64,000 nucleotides of DNA from Lentisphaerota bacterium. Lineage in GTDB: Bacteria; Verrucomicrobiota; Lentisphaeria; Victivallales; Victivallaceae. Of the stretch, positions 3,914-12,757 are shown one piece after another; the first letter of the stretch is position 1; every line of letters begins with the position of its first letter. Below the pieces are notes generated by a model. The model was given only the letters and a program-made list of their open reading frames with translations, ran no database searches and was not told the origin of the DNA. The stretch covers positions 1 to 64,000 of the forward strand of contig SUWH01000004.1 of the NCBI GenBank assembly GCA_015061605.1, given 5' to 3'. The translations under genes were made by a program, and so were the position numbers.

Positions 3914-4519
3914 ATGTTCAAATCAAAATGGTCTTTGATGCTTTTTGCCGTCATCGCCGGATGCATCTTCGGCGGTTGCGCCGATCCGGTAGTCTTTGCT
4001 GAAGTATTCCAGCTGGAAAAAGGTCAGGAAATTTGTACCAGATACAACATCTGGTATGACGATCCGCAGGAGATAAGCTGCCTCAACATCCAGCACGGCG
4101 GTTTCATCCCCATCGGCACAGTCATTGAACCATTGGGAACCGACAACTATCCGGAACGCATCCGTTTCAAAGTCAAATCCACCGGCAGAGAGTACGCAAT
4201 TTTGTTCAAAGAAGCCTACCGCCTCTGTACCATGCGCGACTATATCGCCAACACCTTTGCCGTTGAAAACCCGCTGGATAAACTTCCCTCTGCCTCCGAC
4301 CGGGACAAAAAGATCCGCGAACGCATCATCCGCGGCGAAGTCGTCCCCGGCATGACCAGAGATCAGGTCGAACTTGCCTACGGTCCTCCGCCGGCAGTGC
4401 GGACTCCGGACAAGCGCAACGAAACCTGGATCTACTGGAGATCAGAAGATCAGCAGATCAGGGTCATTTTCCGGGATGATGTGGTACGCAATGTTTTAAC
4501 TTTCAACAGCGAACTGTAA
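3914..4519 (+). CDS. Outer-membrane lipoprotein with BamE/SmpA-like domain
   Basis: The 201-residue protein begins with a lipoprotein signal peptide: basic start, hydrophobic stretch, and lipobox FGGC with the acylated cysteine at about residue 22. The C-terminal part contains GMTRDQVELAYGPP followed by an aromatic strand ETWIYW and a VIFRDDVV strand. This is the recognisable pattern of the BamE/SmpA fold, which in proteobacteria assists outer-membrane protein assembly. The central region is not recognised. It ends nine bases before murF, so it may share that transcript. Weak promoter-like TATATT preceded by TGC lies at 3866-3871. Confidence 0.75.
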   Translation: MFKSKWSLMLFAVIAGCIFGGCADPVVFAEVFQLEKGQEICTRYNIWYDDPQEISCLNIQHGGFIPIGTVIEPLGTDNYPERIRFKVKSTGREYAILFKEAYRLCTMRDYIANTFAVENPLDKLPSASDRDKKIRERIIRGEVVPGMTRDQVELAYGPPPAVRTPDKRNETWIYWRSEDQQIRVIFRDDVVRNVLTFNSEL

Positions 4520-4528
4520 AAATTATCC

Positions 4529-5908
4529 ATGTCAGAAACAGCTTTCAGTGCCGGAGAATTTGCTCTTGCCACCGGCGGAGAGTGGGTCGGTGATTTAAGT
4601 AATTTCCCGGAACGTGCCGGATTTTTCAGTGACACGCGCGTTGATGGGAAAGGCAAAGTGTTTTTCGCCTTTTCCGGAGAAAATTTCGATGCCCACAATT
4701 TCCTCGATGCCGCATCCGCTGCCGGATGCTGTGCGTTGTGCATAAAAAAAAGTTTCACCGGCAAAACGCCCGATCTGCCGCTTTTGAAAGTTGACGATGT
4801 GGTAAAAGCATTTCAGGCTCTTGCCGCATACCACCGGCAGAAATTTCCGGAACTTGTCGTCGCCGGAGTCACCGGAAGCGTCGGCAAAACCAGCACCAAA
4901 GAGATGGTGCGGGCAATTTTTACTGAATTTGCCGGAACACCTGAAGCAGTTTTATACACCATCGGCAACACCAACAACCATCTCGGCGTGCCGCAGAATT
5001 TACTGCGCCTCAATGATCAGCACCGTTTCGCCGTCATTGAAATGGGAACCAGTTCCCACGGTGAAATACTGCCGCTTTCATTGACCGCTTCACCGTGTGC
5101 CGCCGCCGTCAACACCGTCGCTCCCTGCCATCTGGAAAATCTGGGTTCTCTGGACGGCGTAGCTGAAGAAAAATCCACCATCTTTGCCGGTGTTCCGGAA
5201 GATGGCACCGCCGTTATCGGCATCGGAACCCATGGTGAAAATATCCTGCGCCAAGCCGCCGGAAAACGCAAAATCATAACTTTCGGCACCGATCCGGAGA
5301 AGTGCGATGTCGCCACAAATTTTGAATCTGGAACTCTTGAGAGCAGCACCTTTACCCTGACCTTTTTCAATCAGCGCAAATATTCCGTTTCGTGGCAGCT
5401 TACCGGAGTCCATCAGGCGGGCAACGCCGCCTGTGCCGCCGCGCTGGCAGTCGCCTGCGGGGTTTCCGAGGAAGCGATAGTTTCCGGATTGCGCAATACC
5501 ACCTTGCCCGGACGGCGGATGAAACGCACCGAAATAAATGAAGTCACCTACATCAACGACGCCTACAATGCCAATCCGGCAAGTATGCGGGCGTTGCTCA
5601 CACTTTTAGCTGAAACTGCCGACAAATCCAAACTGGTACTCTGTCTGGGCGGGATGCGCGAACTCGGTGAAAGCAGTGCGCTTGAACACACTGAACTTTT
5701 GCAGTTCGTTGCAAAAAACTTCCCCGGTGTCCGGCTGATAACTGTCGGCAGAGAGTTTGAAAACATCCCCGGCAACGGCAAATATTTCCTGACCAGTCCC
5801 GAAGCAGAAGCGTATCTGGCATCCATCGTCAAACCGGGTGATCTGGTTGCCGCCAAAGGTTCTTTCGGCAATCATACCGAACTTGCTCTGCCGGAGGCGG
5901 CGCGATGA
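4529..5908 (+). CDS. murF: UDP-N-acetylmuramoyl-tripeptide--D-alanyl-D-alanine ligase
   Basis: This 459-residue Mur ligase adds D-Ala-D-Ala to the UDP-MurNAc tripeptide in the cytoplasm, the last soluble step of peptidoglycan precursor synthesis. The ATP-binding loop GVTGSVGKTSTKEM lies at about residues 112-125. Further family landmarks are GNTNNHLGVP, the EMGTSSHGEI segment, and INDAYNANPASMRALL near residue 350. It is first of a tight operon: its TGA overlaps the murE ATG in ATGA, and murE overlaps the next gene. The order murF before murE is the reverse of the usual dcw order. Length and motifs are complete. Confidence 0.95.
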   Translation: MSETAFSAGEFALATGGEWVGDLSNFPERAGFFSDTRVDGKGKVFFAFSGENFDAHNFLDAASAAGCCALCIKKSFTGKTPDLPLLKVDDVVKAFQALAAYHRQKFPELVVAGVTGSVGKTSTKEMVRAIFTEFAGTPEAVLYTIGNTNNHLGVPQNLLRLNDQHRFAVIEMGTSSHGEILPLSLTASPCAAAVNTVAPCHLENLGSLDGVAEEKSTIFAGVPEDGTAVIGIGTHGENILRQAAGKRKIITFGTDPEKCDVATNFESGTLESSTFTLTFFNQRKYSVSWQLTGVHQAGNAACAAALAVACGVSEEAIVSGLRNTTLPGRRMKRTEINEVTYINDAYNANPASMRALLTLLAETADKSKLVLCLGGMRELGESSALEHTELLQFVAKNFPGVRLITVGREFENIPGNGKYFLTSPEAEAYLASIVKPGDLVAAKGSFGNHTELALPEAAR

Positions 5909-7353
5909 ATGAGTTGCGGCGGCAGTTACTTGATGAAGCACAAGCGATCGTCCGGAAATTTCCCGGCAGAAATATTGTGACCGATTCCCGCAAAGTGAAA
6001 AAAGGGGATATTTTTGTCGCGGTATCCGGGGTCAATGTTGAAGGCAAAGAATTCATTCCTGATGCCGTTGCCAACGGCGCGGAAGTGGTGATTTATTCCG
6101 GAACACTGCCGGAAGTTCTGCCGCAAGTAAACTGTATCGAAGTATCCGACAGCCGCCAAATCGTTTCATATTTGTACAAAGCGTTTTACAATTCGCCCGA
6201 TGAAAAGGTGAAACTCTATGCCGTCACCGGAACCAACGGCAAAACCACCAGTGCTTATTTGCTCAATGCAATATTGCAGAATTGCGGCGTAAAATGCGGA
6301 CTTTTTTCGACAGTCGAATACCGGACCGGCAAAGAAAATTTTTCTGCGACTCACACTTCTCCGGATGCCGGACAGTTTTTCCGGCTGCTCAATGAGATGA
6401 GAGAAAACGGTTTGACCGCCTGCGCTATGGAAAGTTCCAGCCACTCGCTTGCTCAACACCGGCTGGATGCGGCAGATATTGCCGGAGCGATATTCACCAA
6501 TCTTACGGGAGATCATCTTGACTTTCATAAGACGATGGAAAATTACTTCGCCGCCAAAGTCCGGTTGTTCACCGAATTGTCCGCCAACAACGGCGTTGCG
6601 GCAATAAATATTGATGACCCGTACGGCAAAAAACTGATGGAAAAAGTCAATGGTCATGCCGCAACTTTCGGTGTTGCACCGGATGCGGCATATCAGATAA
6701 GCGATATTTCTATCGGTGCCGATGGAACCGCTTTTAAATTGAGCCATGCCGGAAAGATTTTGGATATTTCATCAAATTTGAGCGGGGCGTATAATATTCA
6801 CAATCTTGCCGGGGTGTTGACGCTGTTGTGGGCGTCAGGTTTTCCGCCGGAAATATTGGGGAAAAGTGCGGCATTGCCGTTTCAAGTTCCCGGACGGCTG
6901 GAAAAAGTTTCCACCGTTTCTCCGGCGCAGTTCTATATCGACTTCGCCCATACCGATGATGCCCTGCGCAATGTGCTTTCGACCGTTAAGGCGTTTACTT
7001 CCGGAAAATTGTGGGTGGTTTTCGGTGCGGGCGGCGACCGCGACCGCACCAAGCGGCCGCGCATGGGCAAGGCGGCTTCAGAATATGCGGATATATTGGT
7101 CGTGACCAGCGACAATCCGCGTTCGGAAGTTCCGGAAGCGATCGTCGCCGATATCGTCAGCGGCATTCCGGAAAACAGCGTGTACCATGTCGAAGTTGAC
7201 CGCGCCAAAGCCCTGCACTATGCGGTAAAAAATGCCGCCGCAGGTGATGTGGTCGTCGTCGCCGGAAAAGGACATGAAAATTATCAGGAAATTGCCGGAG
7301 TGAAACACCCGTTCAGCGACCGGGAAGTTCTGATGGGGATAACAAATGAGTGA
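5905..7353 (+). CDS. murE: UDP-N-acetylmuramoyl-tripeptide synthetase, meso-diaminopimelate type
   Basis: The 482-residue protein is a Mur ligase with the phosphate-binding loop TGTNGKTTSAY at about residues 108-118. Near residue 402 it has DNPRSEVP, the signature that binds meso-diaminopimelate in MurE enzymes of Gram-negative type. It therefore most likely adds meso-DAP to UDP-MurNAc-L-Ala-D-Glu, and the presence of dapB at 29010-29816 supplies the matching pathway. HLDFHKTMENYFAAKVRLF carries the conserved region around the carbamylated lysine. The start overlaps murF by four bases and the end overlaps the following gene by eight, indicating translational coupling. Confidence 0.95.
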   Translation: MNELRRQLLDEAQAIVRKFPGRNIVTDSRKVKKGDIFVAVSGVNVEGKEFIPDAVANGAEVVIYSGTLPEVLPQVNCIEVSDSRQIVSYLYKAFYNSPDEKVKLYAVTGTNGKTTSAYLLNAILQNCGVKCGLFSTVEYRTGKENFSATHTSPDAGQFFRLLNEMRENGLTACAMESSSHSLAQHRLDAADIAGAIFTNLTGDHLDFHKTMENYFAAKVRLFTELSANNGVAAINIDDPYGKKLMEKVNGHAATFGVAPDAAYQISDISIGADGTAFKLSHAGKILDISSNLSGAYNIHNLAGVLTLLWASGFPPEILGKSAALPFQVPGRLEKVSTVSPAQFYIDFAHTDDALRNVLSTVKAFTSGKLWVVFGAGGDRDRTKRPRMGKAASEYADILVVTSDNPRSEVPEAIVADIVSGIPENSVYHVEVDRAKALHYAVKNAAAGDVVVVAGKGHENYQEIAGVKHPFSDREVLMGITNE

Positions 7354-8395
7354 TAAGCTTTTTCAATATTTGACCCGATTTTACCGTCCGGAAGAGTTCC
7401 CCGCTCTGGCGGCGCAGGCGGAAAGATGGAAAATTTCCCGCCCGCTGGCAGGCAGAATGATTTACGATGCCACGCCGGTTTTCCGCAATACGATGGTAAA
7501 ATATTATGCCTTGCAGTGCGCCGGAGCGCAAGTTACCGCTGCAGTCGGGAAGAATATTCCCTGCGATGAAAACATCTGCAAAATCCTGCCGGAATTCGGA
7601 ATAAAAGTCGCCGGAGATGTTGAAAAAAATCTCACTTATGATGTGGTTGCCGACTGCGCCGGAGTATCCCGGCAAATCAAGAGCCGCAACGGATATGTGG
7701 AACTCACCCGGAGCGGACTGGAATATTATGCAAACTTTCCCCGTCCGGTCTTTTCGGCGGATTCCGGGGTGTTGAAAAAGTTGGAAACCATCCTCGGTAC
7801 CGGAGAGGGATTTCTGCGGGCGATGAAACAGCTCGGATATAATGACTTCAAAAATAAAAAAGTTCTGGTTTTCGGAGGCGGCAAGGTCGGGCGCGGCGTG
7901 GCTCATTATGCCCGATGCGCCGGTGCGGAGGTCACAGTCGCCGATTTAAAGGAAGTGGTTCTGCCCGATAATATAACTTACCTTGACGGCAATGATGAAG
8001 ATTCCGTCCGCCGTGCGATCAATGAAAGCTGGTGTATCGTTTCTGTGACCGGGCTTGCCGGAGCGTTGAAACGCTGGGCCGTTGATCTGGTCAAAAGTTC
8101 TGCCATCATCGCCAATATGGGAGTCGAAGATGAGTTCGGCGGAGATGTTCCAGTATCCCGGGTGCTGAATGAAAAACGCCCGTTGAACTTCATTCTCAAT
8201 GAGCCGACCCATTTGAAATACATTGATGCTACGATGGCACTCAATAATTACGGCATTGAAAAACTGCTCTTTGAAACTTTGCCCTGCGGGATAAATTTTC
8301 CTTCGCGTGAATTGGAAAAATCCATCGTTGCCGACATAAAAAAGAACGGCATCATCGCAAATGAAATGGAATTTATAATTTCTGAACTGGATTGA
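7346..8395 (+). CDS. S-adenosylhomocysteinase-like NAD-binding protein
   Basis: The 349-residue protein resembles adenosylhomocysteinase but is about 80-120 residues shorter. A Rossmann loop GGGKVGRGVAHYARCAGAEV sits at about residues 176-195, matching the NAD-binding region of that family. It is followed by SVTGLAGAL and AIIANMGVEDEFG, which parallel the 'TTG' and 'NIGHFD' stretches of the family. The N-terminal half keeps the outline (FRNTMVKYYALQCAGAQV) but not the usual substrate-binding residues. A true SAM-cycle role is therefore doubtful. It overlaps murE by eight bases and closes the murF-murE operon, so a link to cell-wall precursors or nucleotide-linked metabolites is possible but inferred. 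Confidence 0.75.
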   Translation: MSDKLFQYLTRFYRPEEFPALAAQAERWKISRPLAGRMIYDATPVFRNTMVKYYALQCAGAQVTAAVGKNIPCDENICKILPEFGIKVAGDVEKNLTYDVVADCAGVSRQIKSRNGYVELTRSGLEYYANFPRPVFSADSGVLKKLETILGTGEGFLRAMKQLGYNDFKNKKVLVFGGGKVGRGVAHYARCAGAEVTVADLKEVVLPDNITYLDGNDEDSVRRAINESWCIVSVTGLAGALKRWAVDLVKSSAIIANMGVEDEFGGDVPVSRVLNEKRPLNFILNEPTHLKYIDATMALNNYGIEKLLFETLPCGINFPSRELEKSIVADIKKNGIIANEMEFIISELD

Positions 8396-8913: not shown

Positions 8914-10233
8914 ATGGCAAGTGAAATAAAAAACAGAGAGTGCGCTGTACTCAAATTTGAGGGCAAGGAAGTTGAATTGCCCGTCGTTACCGGTACCGAA
9001 GGAGATAAAGCTCTGGATATCCGGGCGTTGCGCAGTGAGACCGGATTGGTTACGATCGACCCCGGATTTGTCAATACCGCCAGCTGCCGGAGTCAAATAA
9101 CTTATATCGACGGTGAACGCGGAATTTTGCGTTACCGCGGCATCCCGATTGAAGAACTGGTAAAGAAATCCACCTTTGTCGATGTCGCCTATCTGCTCGT
9201 ACACGGTACACTGCCCACCGCGCAGGAACGGCTGGACTTTTCCAGTATGCTCAATTTGAACAGTCTCATTCATGAGGATATGCGCCGTTTCTTCGATCAC
9301 TTCCCGCAGGGGGCGCACCCGATGCACATTTTGTCCACCATGATCAACGCCATGGCGGCATTTTACCCCAATGTGGACATCAACACCACGACTGCCAATA
9401 TTGAACAATCCTGCGCGCGGGTTATCTCCATCGTCCGTACGATCGCCGCCTTTGCTTACAAAAAATCCATCGGTGAACCGATCGTTTATCCGCGCCATGA
9501 CCTTTCATATTGCGCCAACTTTCTTAATATGATGTTCGATTCTCCGGTGCGCCCCTACCACATCAGTCCGGAAACCGTCCGTCTGCTCAATGTACTGTTT
9601 ATCCTCCACGCCGACCATGAACAGAACTGTTCAACTTCGGCGGTGCGGGTCATCGGCAGTGCGCAGGTGAATTTGTATGCGACCATTTCCGCCGGTATTT
9701 CCGCGCTTTCCGGCCCCTTGCACGGGGGAGCCAATCAGGCGGTCATCGAACAGTTGAAAATCATCCACAAAGATGGTGATGTGAATAAATTCATCAATAT
9801 GGCAAAAGATAAGAATTCGCCTTTCCGGCTGATGGGCTTCGGACACCGGGTCTACAAATCCTACGATCCCCGTGCCGCCATCATCCGCAAAGAGTGCGAA
9901 AACTATCTCAACCGTATCGGTTCCTCCGATCCGTTGCTTGAAACTGCCCGCAAACTGGAAGATGCCGCGCTCAAAGATCCTTACTTTATTGAGCGCTCCC
10001 TCTATCCGAATGTTGACTTTTACACCGGTATCCTTTACCGGGCGATGGGTATTCCGGAGAATATGTTCACGGTGATGTTCGCGCTCGCACGTCTGCCCGG
10101 ATGGGTGGCGCACTGGCGTGAAATGATCGGGGATTCGACCAAGATCGTCCGGCCGCGTCAGCTCTACATCGGCAGAACGCTTCAGGAGATCGGCGACGAA
10201 CTTGAATCACGCAGTTCGACATTCCTTCTTTGA
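8914..10233 (+). CDS. gltA: Citrate synthase
   Basis: The 439-residue protein is a type II (hexameric, Gram-negative-type) citrate synthase that condenses acetyl-CoA with oxaloacetate at the entry to the TCA cycle. The N-terminal beta domain (about residues 5-45) is present. The catalytic residues are in place: His in GPLHGGANQAV (about 270), His in GFGHRVYK (about 311), and Asp in NVDFYTG (about 368). The ATG is preceded by GAGG, and its own promoter lies 50 bases upstream. The gene ends about 20 bases before the MFS transporter, with which it may be cotranscribed. No other TCA gene is in the window. Confidence 0.95.
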   Translation: MASEIKNRECAVLKFEGKEVELPVVTGTEGDKALDIRALRSETGLVTIDPGFVNTASCRSQITYIDGERGILRYRGIPIEELVKKSTFVDVAYLLVHGTLPTAQERLDFSSMLNLNSLIHEDMRRFFDHFPQGAHPMHILSTMINAMAAFYPNVDINTTTANIEQSCARVISIVRTIAAFAYKKSIGEPIVYPRHDLSYCANFLNMMFDSPVRPYHISPETVRLLNVLFILHADHEQNCSTSAVRVIGSAQVNLYATISAGISALSGPLHGGANQAVIEQLKIIHKDGDVNKFINMAKDKNSPFRLMGFGHRVYKSYDPRAAIIRKECENYLNRIGSSDPLLETARKLEDAALKDPYFIERSLYPNVDFYTGILYRAMGIPENMFTVMFALARLPGWVAHWREMIGDSTKIVRPRQLYIGRTLQEIGDELESRSSTFLL

Positions 10234-11535: not shown

Positions 11536-11565
11536 AAAAAATCCGGCAAATGCCGGATTTTTTTG
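11536..11565 (+). terminator. Intrinsic terminator after the MFS gene
   Basis: ATCCGGCA at 11541-11548 and TGCCGGAT form a stem with an AA loop, extended by A/T pairs and followed by a run of T. Confidence 0.85.
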
Positions 11566-11666
11566 TACCGGCGAACTGTTTTTTTGACAGAACCGTTTAT
11601 ATTGATTTTCAGAGTGAACCGGCAGAAATCGTTTCTGCCGGAAAAAAACACAGAGGAGAAAATCTT

Positions 11667-12191
11667 ATGAACGACATCCAAAGCCAGATCAACACCATTT
11701 TCCGTATGACTAAAGGCATGACCATTTTCAGGGCGGTCGTCATGCTGATCATCGGTATCGCCATGCTTTTTGCCCCGCTTCAGACATTGTGGTGGATGAC
11801 CATCGTCATCGGCGCGATCGTCATGGTGGACGGCATCGCGCTGTTAAGCAGCGCTCTGCAAAGCGATGATGAATTACGTAATGTTATGGTAGTAAATGCG
11901 ATACTGCTGATCATACTTGGGATATTCTCCCTTTCGGCACCGCTGATGATGGATATGATCTGGGTGATGCTGCTGGGCATCTGGCAGCTGCTCGCCGGAT
12001 TGCAGTATCTCTTTTTGCAGAAAAAATCCCGTCACACATTGTTTACGCTGACCAACGGAGTTATTTCGGTATTGGCTGGATTGTTCTTTCTGTTCCTGCC
12101 TTTCGGCGGATTGCTTGCGGCGACCTGGCTGATCGCGATCATCCTCATCGCCAGCAGCGTGATGAACTTCTTCACCGCCTTTAAACTGTAA
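11667..12191 (+). CDS. HdeD/DUF308 family membrane protein
   Basis: The start at 11667 has AGAGGAG eight bases upstream and gives 174 residues. The protein is almost entirely membrane: about six hydrophobic helices arranged in pairs (for example AVVMLIIGIAMLFAPLQTLW, then an AILLIILGIFSL segment). Short charged loops and the W-rich helix ends match the DUF308/HdeD family, known in Escherichia coli for acid-stress association, although function is not settled. It is monocistronic: an intrinsic terminator precedes it, and the long palindrome 12201-12252 follows nine bases after the stop. Confidence 0.8.
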   Translation: MNDIQSQINTIFRMTKGMTIFRAVVMLIIGIAMLFAPLQTLWWMTIVIGAIVMVDGIALLSSALQSDDELRNVMVVNAILLIILGIFSLSAPLMMDMIWVMLLGIWQLLAGLQYLFLQKKSRHTLFTLTNGVISVLAGLFFLFLPFGGLLAATWLIAIILIASSVMNFFTAFKL

Positions 12192-12252: not shown

Positions 12253-12338
12253 AAACCCCCTTCCCCTTTTTAAAAAAGCGAGATAATTTGCCGCTCCGTT
12301 GTCGCGGCGACGACCGCAAGGCCAGCGGGAGCAAAAAA

Positions 12339-12398
12339 ACCGCCGTCAGGCGGAACAAACACTACCTTGCCTGTCGTGCCGGAGGCACGACAAAAGGC
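12339..12398 (+). repeat. Repeat A, copy 1
   Basis: A 60-base unit with two hairpins: CCGCC-GTCA-GGCGG, then TGTCGTGCC and GGCACGACA around a GGA loop. Copies 2-4 are at 12552, 45283 and 45529. Confidence 0.85.
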
Positions 12399-12551
12399 GC
12401 CAAAAGCCAGTCGCACCACGGGGCGGATGGATCGGGCGGCAAGGTCGCCGGTAAGTCAAGGCGACGGCGAAGGAGTGGACTGCTGTCCCCGACTGAGCCG
12501 GCGACCGCTGACTTGCCCAGAGATTGCCCGCGAGCCGCCGCCCCCACAATA

Positions 12552-12611
12552 ACCGCCGTCAGGCGGAACAAACACTACCTTGCCTGTCGTGCCGGAGGCA
12601 CGACAAAAGGC
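12552..12611 (+). repeat. Repeat A, copy 2
   Basis: It is identical or nearly so to copy 1. It continues into CAACAGCCAGCAGCCCGGAA and AGGAGCGATATCGC, a tail shared with copies 3 and 4 near 45344 and 45590. Confidence 0.85.
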
Positions 12612-12757
12612 TCAACAGCCAGCAGCCCGGAATCAGGAGCGATATCGCGCCGCTATCCGGTGGTTTTGCCGAGGAGCAGCGACAGGAGCGTACTTGCGTA
12701 CGTGACTGGAGCGGCGACGACCGCAAGGCCAGCGGGAGCAAGCGAGATCGCTCCGTG

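Follow-up and report, generated by a model that had tools for sequence, protein, structure and literature searches.

The last gene of a murF-murE operon in Lentisphaerota encodes a 349-residue protein, which we call SAHL, with an NAD site and the fold of adenosylhomocysteinase (AhcY/SAHH). SAHL belongs to a distinct family of proteins with the SAHH fold, found in gut bacteria from several phyla, and the recurring partner of SAHL across these phyla is a nucleoside deaminase. On balance we favor the view that the NAD-binding SAHL works after this amidohydrolase-type deaminase on purine nucleosides left behind by SAM chemistry.

The window analyzed is a stretch of 64,000 nt from a Lentisphaerota genome. 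The gene, its neighbors and the segments of SAHL discussed below are as follows:

3914–4519, + strand: BamE-like protein, first gene of the operon conserved in the genus (PF04355, 19.8 bits, below the cut-off of 23.2)
4529–5908, + strand: murF (profile match)
5905–7353, + strand: murE (profile match), found beside SAHL only in the window's genus
7346–8395, + strand: SAHL, SAHH-fold protein with an NAD site, 349 aa (ORF calls, Pfam, structure model)
7475–7489, + strand: PxFxN, residues P44–N48, at the place of the AhcY base-binding motif HxTxQ (P44 and N48 in 81/81)
7775–7789, + strand: K144–T148, at the place of K186/D190/N191 in human numbering (K144, E147 and T148 invariant)
7874–7897, + strand: GGGKVGRG, residues 177–184, NAD-binding glycine motif (sequence motif)
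8114–8137, + strand: NMGVEDEF, residues 257–264, corresponding in position to the NIGHFD gate loop, which carries the catalytic H301 (NMGVEDEF invariant, 81/81)

The ORF coordinates bear out the first-pass annotation, in which the gene overlaps murE by eight bases and closes the operon: the overlap spans 7346–7353, and the next + strand gene, encoding citrate synthase, starts at 8914. The ORF is real and not a chance reading frame, since we found 80 homologues with 38–75% identity, and 42 columns are invariant across 55 aligned sequences. SAHL was also correctly described as a shortened AhcY-like protein with an NAD-binding core; besides its length and the glycine motif, it matches PF00670 with 30.9 bits (cut-off 27) over residues 168–262, the Pfam NAD domain being the only part to pass. 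It falls far below every AhcY cut-off in NCBIfam (57.2 against 275 for the best model, 48.2 against 497.6), and PF01048 is absent from its Pfam matches up to an E-value of 1. SAHL is about 110 residues shorter than AhcY, with a median length of 358 (n = 81) compared to 471 for AhcY of the phylum (n = 13). A quick tree, built without five of the 81 SAHL rows (L073, L082, L086, L092, L099) and with four of the 13 AhcY rows, placed SAHL in a clade of its own with a very long branch, and the two proteins usually occur together in the same genome. SAHL had no match in plasmids, and spread by plasmids is thus not backed. We found no paper on the family in the open-licence literature, a scope that makes this a weak negative.

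The predicted model of SAHL (pLDDT 95.6) was compared to known structures with Foldseek and VIA-align. It superimposes on 1xwf_A over 328 residues (Z 34.3, rmsd 2.7), which corresponds to the SAHH fold across the whole length, with the same domain order and the NAD motif. The active site differs. Neither the base motif HxTxQ(E)/HxExK nor the catalytic His55 was found in the 81 sequences; the site reads PxFxN instead, with P44 replacing H55 in 81/81. Likewise, there are no equivalents of D131, E156, the gate His301 and His353: D131 is replaced by C104 (77/81), E156 by L120 (81/81) and H301 by V260 or E263, depending on the alignment. No histidine is invariant in SAHL, the best His column reaching 61/81 and being N300 in the window protein. 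The equivalents of D130, E155 and T157, on the other hand, are kept and invariant in three alignments, and in all three D190 corresponds to an invariant E147. K144 aligns with K186 by hhalign only and is one residue off in MAFFT. The earlier statement that SAHL lacks clear active-site matches thus holds for the histidines, HxTxQ, D131 and E156, but not for D130, E155, T157 and D190, the last matched as Glu; the full catalytic set that had been named as refuting evidence was not found on alignment. SAHL thus retains the NAD site and part of the ribose contacts, and has lost the residues acting at C5′.

A deaminase of the MTA/SAH/5′-deoxyadenosine type adjoins SAHL in 34 of the 80 loci, 29 times downstream on the same strand, four times convergently and once divergently. 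This adjacency is seen in Lentisphaerota, Verrucomicrobiota, Kiritimatiellota, Sutterellaceae and Bacteroidales. The first-pass annotation was right to suggest a link with SAM metabolism. The two genes also tend to occur in the same genomes: the deaminase (E ≤ 1e-85) was detected in 39/43 genomes with SAHL and in 11/37 without (Fisher 2.4e-8, the genomes not being independent). A close deaminase was absent from 4/43 SAHL genomes, and eight had only a more distant one. A search of the window for a remnant deaminase 3′ of SAHL found none; the window's own genome encodes a deaminase at C51 with 81% identity to a SAHL-linked one. The best PDB match of the deaminase is an MTA/SAH deaminase, and H54, H56, H201, H239 and D290, which we take to be residues of the metal-ligand type, are the same in all 22 deaminases compared. 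Three Bacteroidales genomes have the deaminase gene beside one for an inosine/guanosine purine nucleoside phosphorylase (PNP).

In the window's family (f1), PF01048 genes were typed in 5 of 32 genomes with SAHL and in 22 of 26 without. No PF01048 nucleosidase or phosphorylase gene was found in the five SAHL genomes typed, all of which have the deaminase, and one was present in 22/22 of the others. All six of the typed SAHL-less genomes of f1 that have the deaminase carry an inosine-type PNP (NF006054, over cut-off), and those without the deaminase carry MTAP or MTAN-like genes. It is therefore well supported that SAHL takes the slot of the inosine-type PNP in f1. PNP is also active in general purine salvage, so its absence is open to other meanings, and SAHL, deaminase and PNP or MTAN occur together in Kiritimatiellota (4/4 tested) and most Bacteroidales. 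A simple replacement of MTAN is not backed: in the phylum, MTAN over cut-off is no rarer with SAHL (8/75) than without (33/312), and it was found in 11/109 Bacteroidales. Counting any TIGR01704 match, which mixes MTAN with other PF01048 members, gives 8/75 and 98/312. A role in the futalosine (menaquinone) pathway was rejected, as MqnE (TIGR03700) was strong in only one (G342) of the 75 SAHL genomes, with no strong match in the window's own genome; the accessible part of PMC4746308 names no such protein.

A deaminase followed by a methylthioinosine/5′-deoxyinosine phosphorylase is a known route in P. aeruginosa and M. jannaschii (PMC6302742, in extract). SAHL would occupy the slot of the second enzyme after the same deaminase step, unlike that phosphorylase not being a PF01048 member and having another fold and an NAD site. 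The deaminase would convert the 6-amino group of 5′-deoxyadenosine and methylthioadenosine, formed in SAM reactions, to a 6-oxo group, and SAHL would then consume the resulting 5′-deoxy- or 5′-methylthio-inosine. Most likely, bound NAD+ would transiently oxidize the ribose 3′-OH in the manner of SAHH, and the 3′-keto intermediate would lose its base from C1′ by elimination, followed by water addition and re-reduction, to give hypoxanthine and 5-deoxyribose, SAHL acting as an NAD-assisted nucleosidase. SAHH cleaves at C5′; base loss from C1′ is suggested here because the C5′-acting residues are gone and 5′-deoxyinosine has no C5′ leaving group. We propose only tentatively, as a reading that may well prove wrong, that SAHL stands for a new class of enzyme, a nucleosidase with the SAHH fold that cleaves the N-glycosidic bond of 5′-deoxyinosine/methylthioinosine via a 3′-keto intermediate and catalytic NAD+ and that replaces a non-homologous PNP in radical-SAM waste disposal in gut anaerobes. 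If true, the SAHH redox trick has been reused on another bond. This reading would also correct the "adenosylhomocysteinase-like" labels that relatives bear in Victivallis, Akkermansia, Fibrobacter, Alistipes and Sutterellaceae. Both 5′-deoxyadenosine and methylthioadenosine inhibit SAM enzymes and need removal (PMC10986504, in extract); for genomes like the window's, in which no PF01048 nucleosidase or phosphorylase was detected, SAHL plus deaminase offers a concrete, assayable answer.

SAHL could instead be a divergent S-inosylhomocysteine (SIH) hydrolase, the deaminase converting SAH to SIH and SAHL cleaving at C5′ to inosine and homocysteine as in Methanocaldococcus, where, according to excerpts of PMC10978960, an SAHH homologue has a comparable deaminase, DadD, as its partner. 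The modeled SAHH fold is consistent with this, as is the lack of AhcY in 12 of 75 SAHL genomes of the phylum. However, the SIH-preferring archaeal enzymes described there keep HxExK, SAHL has lost H55, D131 and the gate His without retaining any invariant His, and 9 of the 12 AhcY-less genomes belong to a single family (f29), eight of them with MTAN. In the other 63/75 AhcY is present, so SAH is already served; the first-pass annotation had called for a search for a canonical AhcY elsewhere in the window's genome, and one is indeed there. We regard this alternative as unlikely.

Slightly less likely again is a nucleoside 3′-dehydrogenase or other oxidoreductase that uses up NAD+ and releases an oxidized nucleoside with no net cleavage. 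The retained NAD motif and partial ribose contacts would fit it, together with the loss of C5′-acting residues, but SAHH-fold enzymes bind NAD tightly and recycle it, and the phosphorylase replacement suggests base release. We think it improbable that SAHL is a pseudoenzyme sensing adenosine- or NAD-like ligands in the manner of the animal AHCYL proteins. These eukaryotic regulatory proteins, with full-length SAHH domains, are SAHH homologues, and the human ones (3gvp, 3mtg) are among the nearest PDB sequences to SAHL by phmmer; the AhcY catalytic residues are also lost. Yet SAHL has 42 invariant columns, many polar and unlike AhcY, and shares operons with a deaminase that seems to have a complete active site, which argues for an enzyme.

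The placement beside murE is a local feature confined to a single genus. The linkage asked about in other Lentisphaerota proved genus-wide rather than confined to one genome, with murE directly upstream in 14/14 SAHL genomes of the window's genus, but it was found at none of the 16 other loci of the phylum that were examined; in the named collection it is present in 11/80 loci, each in a Lentisphaerota MAG belonging to the window's clade, and absent in 69/80. The earlier suggestion that SAHL acts on an envelope precursor or couples the SAM cycle to wall synthesis, which the genus-wide linkage and an in-frame murE-SAHL fusion in one MAG (L041) would favor, is thus rejected as a general explanation and very improbable, the more so as the partner shared across phyla, the deaminase, follows SAHL even within the genus in 12 of 14 loci.

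The recurrent neighbour of SAHL, the SAHH-like protein of the window, is an amidohydrolase of ~415 aa. Among the 80 SAHL loci from a scan of named genomes (identity 38–75%), it lies within 250 nt of SAHL in 34 (29 times downstream in the same orientation, 4 times convergent and once divergent) and a few kb away in 3 more; in 43 the fetched stretch holds no amidohydrolase above 200 bits, which at L034 is due to the end of the contig. The NCBIfam models that fit the amidohydrolase best describe deaminases of the methylthioadenosine (MTA)/SAH/5′-deoxyadenosine group, with scores below their cut-offs, and its best PDB match is the MTA/SAH deaminase 4f0r (E 1.8e-72). Within the window's genus, 12 of 14 loci have this deaminase after SAHL. 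In the window's own genome it has moved from the SAHL locus to contig C51, where it is 81% identical to a SAHL-linked one. There (L127, G000:C51:2500-12207) it adjoins genes that, judged by eye, we take to be Gfo/Idh-type dehydrogenases and mnmE.

Across 80 genomes (43 with and 37 without SAHL), an alignment search at E ≤ 1e-85 found the deaminase in 39/43 SAHL-positive versus 11/37 SAHL-negative genomes (Fisher 2.4e-8, the genomes in the test not being independent). Eight of the 39 carry a more distant type (G390, G391, G393, G400-G403, G410) and two have broken matches (G406, G421); the search gave no match in SAHL-positive G394, G399, G409 and G418.

These 80 genomes were also searched for the nucleoside phosphorylase superfamily, PF01048. 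In the window's family it was found in 22/22 SAHL-negative genomes tested (26 known) and in 0/5 SAHL-positive genomes tested (32 in the family), namely the window's own, G387, G388, G392 and G396, the latter four taken as G064, G009, G028 and G138. G389, outside these five, has a hit that is both weak and broken (3.6e-12). When typed by NCBIfam models, all six SAHL-negative genomes with a deaminase (G094, G141, G170, G252, G269, G379) scored above cut-off for a purine-nucleoside phosphorylase (NF006054). Thus, deaminase-bearing genomes of this family carry either an inosine-type phosphorylase or SAHL. The 16 SAHL-negative genomes without a strong deaminase match have MTAP above cut-off (nine: G006, G019, G153, G200, G202, G238, G266, G275, G278), MTAP below cut-off (G173, and G106 as a fragment), an MTAN-like gene below cut-off (G022, G034, G067, G385) or, in G150, MTAN above cut-off from the MTAN model search alone. 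The four with the MTAN-like gene belong to the window's genus, and AhcY, the canonical hydrolase, is missing in G022, G067 and G385, while G034 has a partial one. This amounts to a complete change of the route for SAH/MTA disposal inside one genus.

Outside the family, PF01048 had no match in 4/4 SAHL-positive Sutterellaceae, four Akkermansia and 2/3 gut Opitutales tested. In the Bacteroidales G437, G440 and G406 the deaminase adjoins an inosine/guanosine phosphorylase, which occupies the slot that SAHL has elsewhere; G406 has SAHL besides this pair. The exclusion is not strict, since PF01048 genes occur in SAHL-positive Kiritimatiellota (two each, 4/4), most SAHL-positive Bacteroidales (1–4), G410 (a phosphorylase), and seven Fibrobacter genomes (one weak match each, the sole typed one nearest to futalosine hydrolase). 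MTAN above cut-off is no rarer in SAHL-positive than in SAHL-negative genomes. General purine salvage may explain the phosphorylase copies beside SAHL.

The AlphaFold2 model of SAHL (mean pLDDT 95.6) predicts an SAHH fold over the whole length (Z 34.3, rmsd 2.7, 328 residues against 1xwf_A). In sequence, the match to the SAHH NAD domain PF00670 is weak (30.9 bits; the cut-off is 27), and the AhcY models all stay below their own cut-offs. We compared the active sites of 81 SAHL and 13 AhcY sequences in three alignments (hhalign and two MAFFT modes), using human SAHH residue numbers and roles. All three pair H55 with P44, T57 with F46, Q59 with N48, D130 with D103, D131 with C104, E155 with E119, E156 with L120, T157 with T121, D190 with E147, N191 with T148 and C195 with T152. 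The counterparts of K186 (K144 by hhalign, L143 by MAFFT), N181 and H301 (V260 or E263) differ by alignment. Under every alignment SAHL lacks an invariant His (best column 61/81), whereas the 13 AhcY have five all-His columns; NMGVEDEF (257-264) is invariant in 81/81 SAHL. The first-pass annotation's lack of clear active-site matches holds for the histidines, the HxTxQ motif, D131 and E156, but not for D130, E155 and T157 (here D103, E119 and T121) nor, with Glu in its place, for D190. The HxTxQ/HxExK motif and the gate His are described in PMC10978960.

A known route, described in PMC6302742, runs from a deaminase to a methylthioinosine/5′-deoxyinosine phosphorylase, and SAHL would fill its second place. 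As SAHL has lost the C5′-acting residues and retains NAD and some of the ribose contacts, the simplest chemistry would be 3′-oxidation followed by base loss. Rival readings make SAHL an S-inosylhomocysteine hydrolase, a plain dehydrogenase or a ligand-sensing pseudoenzyme.

The canonical AhcY that the first-pass annotation sought elsewhere in the window's genome is present on contig C48 (248 bits). Of 387 phylum genomes searched, 75 have strong SAHL matches (E below 1e-50), and AhcY is absent from 12 of these. SAHL is rare in Bacteroidales (3/109 genomes, including the one on which the search was centred). In a quick tree, SAHL forms a single clade separated from AhcY by a very long branch; gut Opitutales cluster with Bacteroidales (support 91) and Sutterellaceae lie within the Bacteroidota-Fibrobacterota portion, a pattern suggestive of transfer across phyla. 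Two short fragments on a second contig of the window's genome (G000:C2:6831-7025; residues 256-277 at 95%, 305-349 at 84%) come either from a second copy in decay or from a stray strain. In six Fibrobacter loci (L072, L094, L101, L104, L108, L111) a conserved ~200-aa gene and then a ~186-aa gene, by eye presumably exonuclease-like, lie 3′ of SAHL; in several, the divergent upstream gene is, again by eye, presumably a sodium symporter.

In the window, SAHL ends a run of genes:

3914-4519, forward strand, BamE-like gene
4529-5908, forward strand, murF
5905-7353, forward strand, murE
7346-8395, forward strand, SAHL (349 aa)

The annotated eight-base overlap with murE is confirmed, and citrate synthase follows (start 8914). 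The linkage of SAHL to murE extends throughout the window's genus, with murE directly 5′ of SAHL at 14/14 loci, but is seen at 0/16 other phylum loci fetched (L004-L033); in the named set murE is upstream in 11/80. The mur linkage, including a single fusion of murE and SAHL in frame, looks like a local operon arrangement. The fused frame (L041 4456-7044, MAG G097; 862 aa, no stop between) is either natural or an assembly error. Elsewhere in the window, two interleaved pairs of direct repeats, 12332-12398 with 12545-12611 (67 nt, 97%) and 12304-12334 with 12711-12741 (31 nt, 100%), sit 3′ of the gene at 11550-12191.
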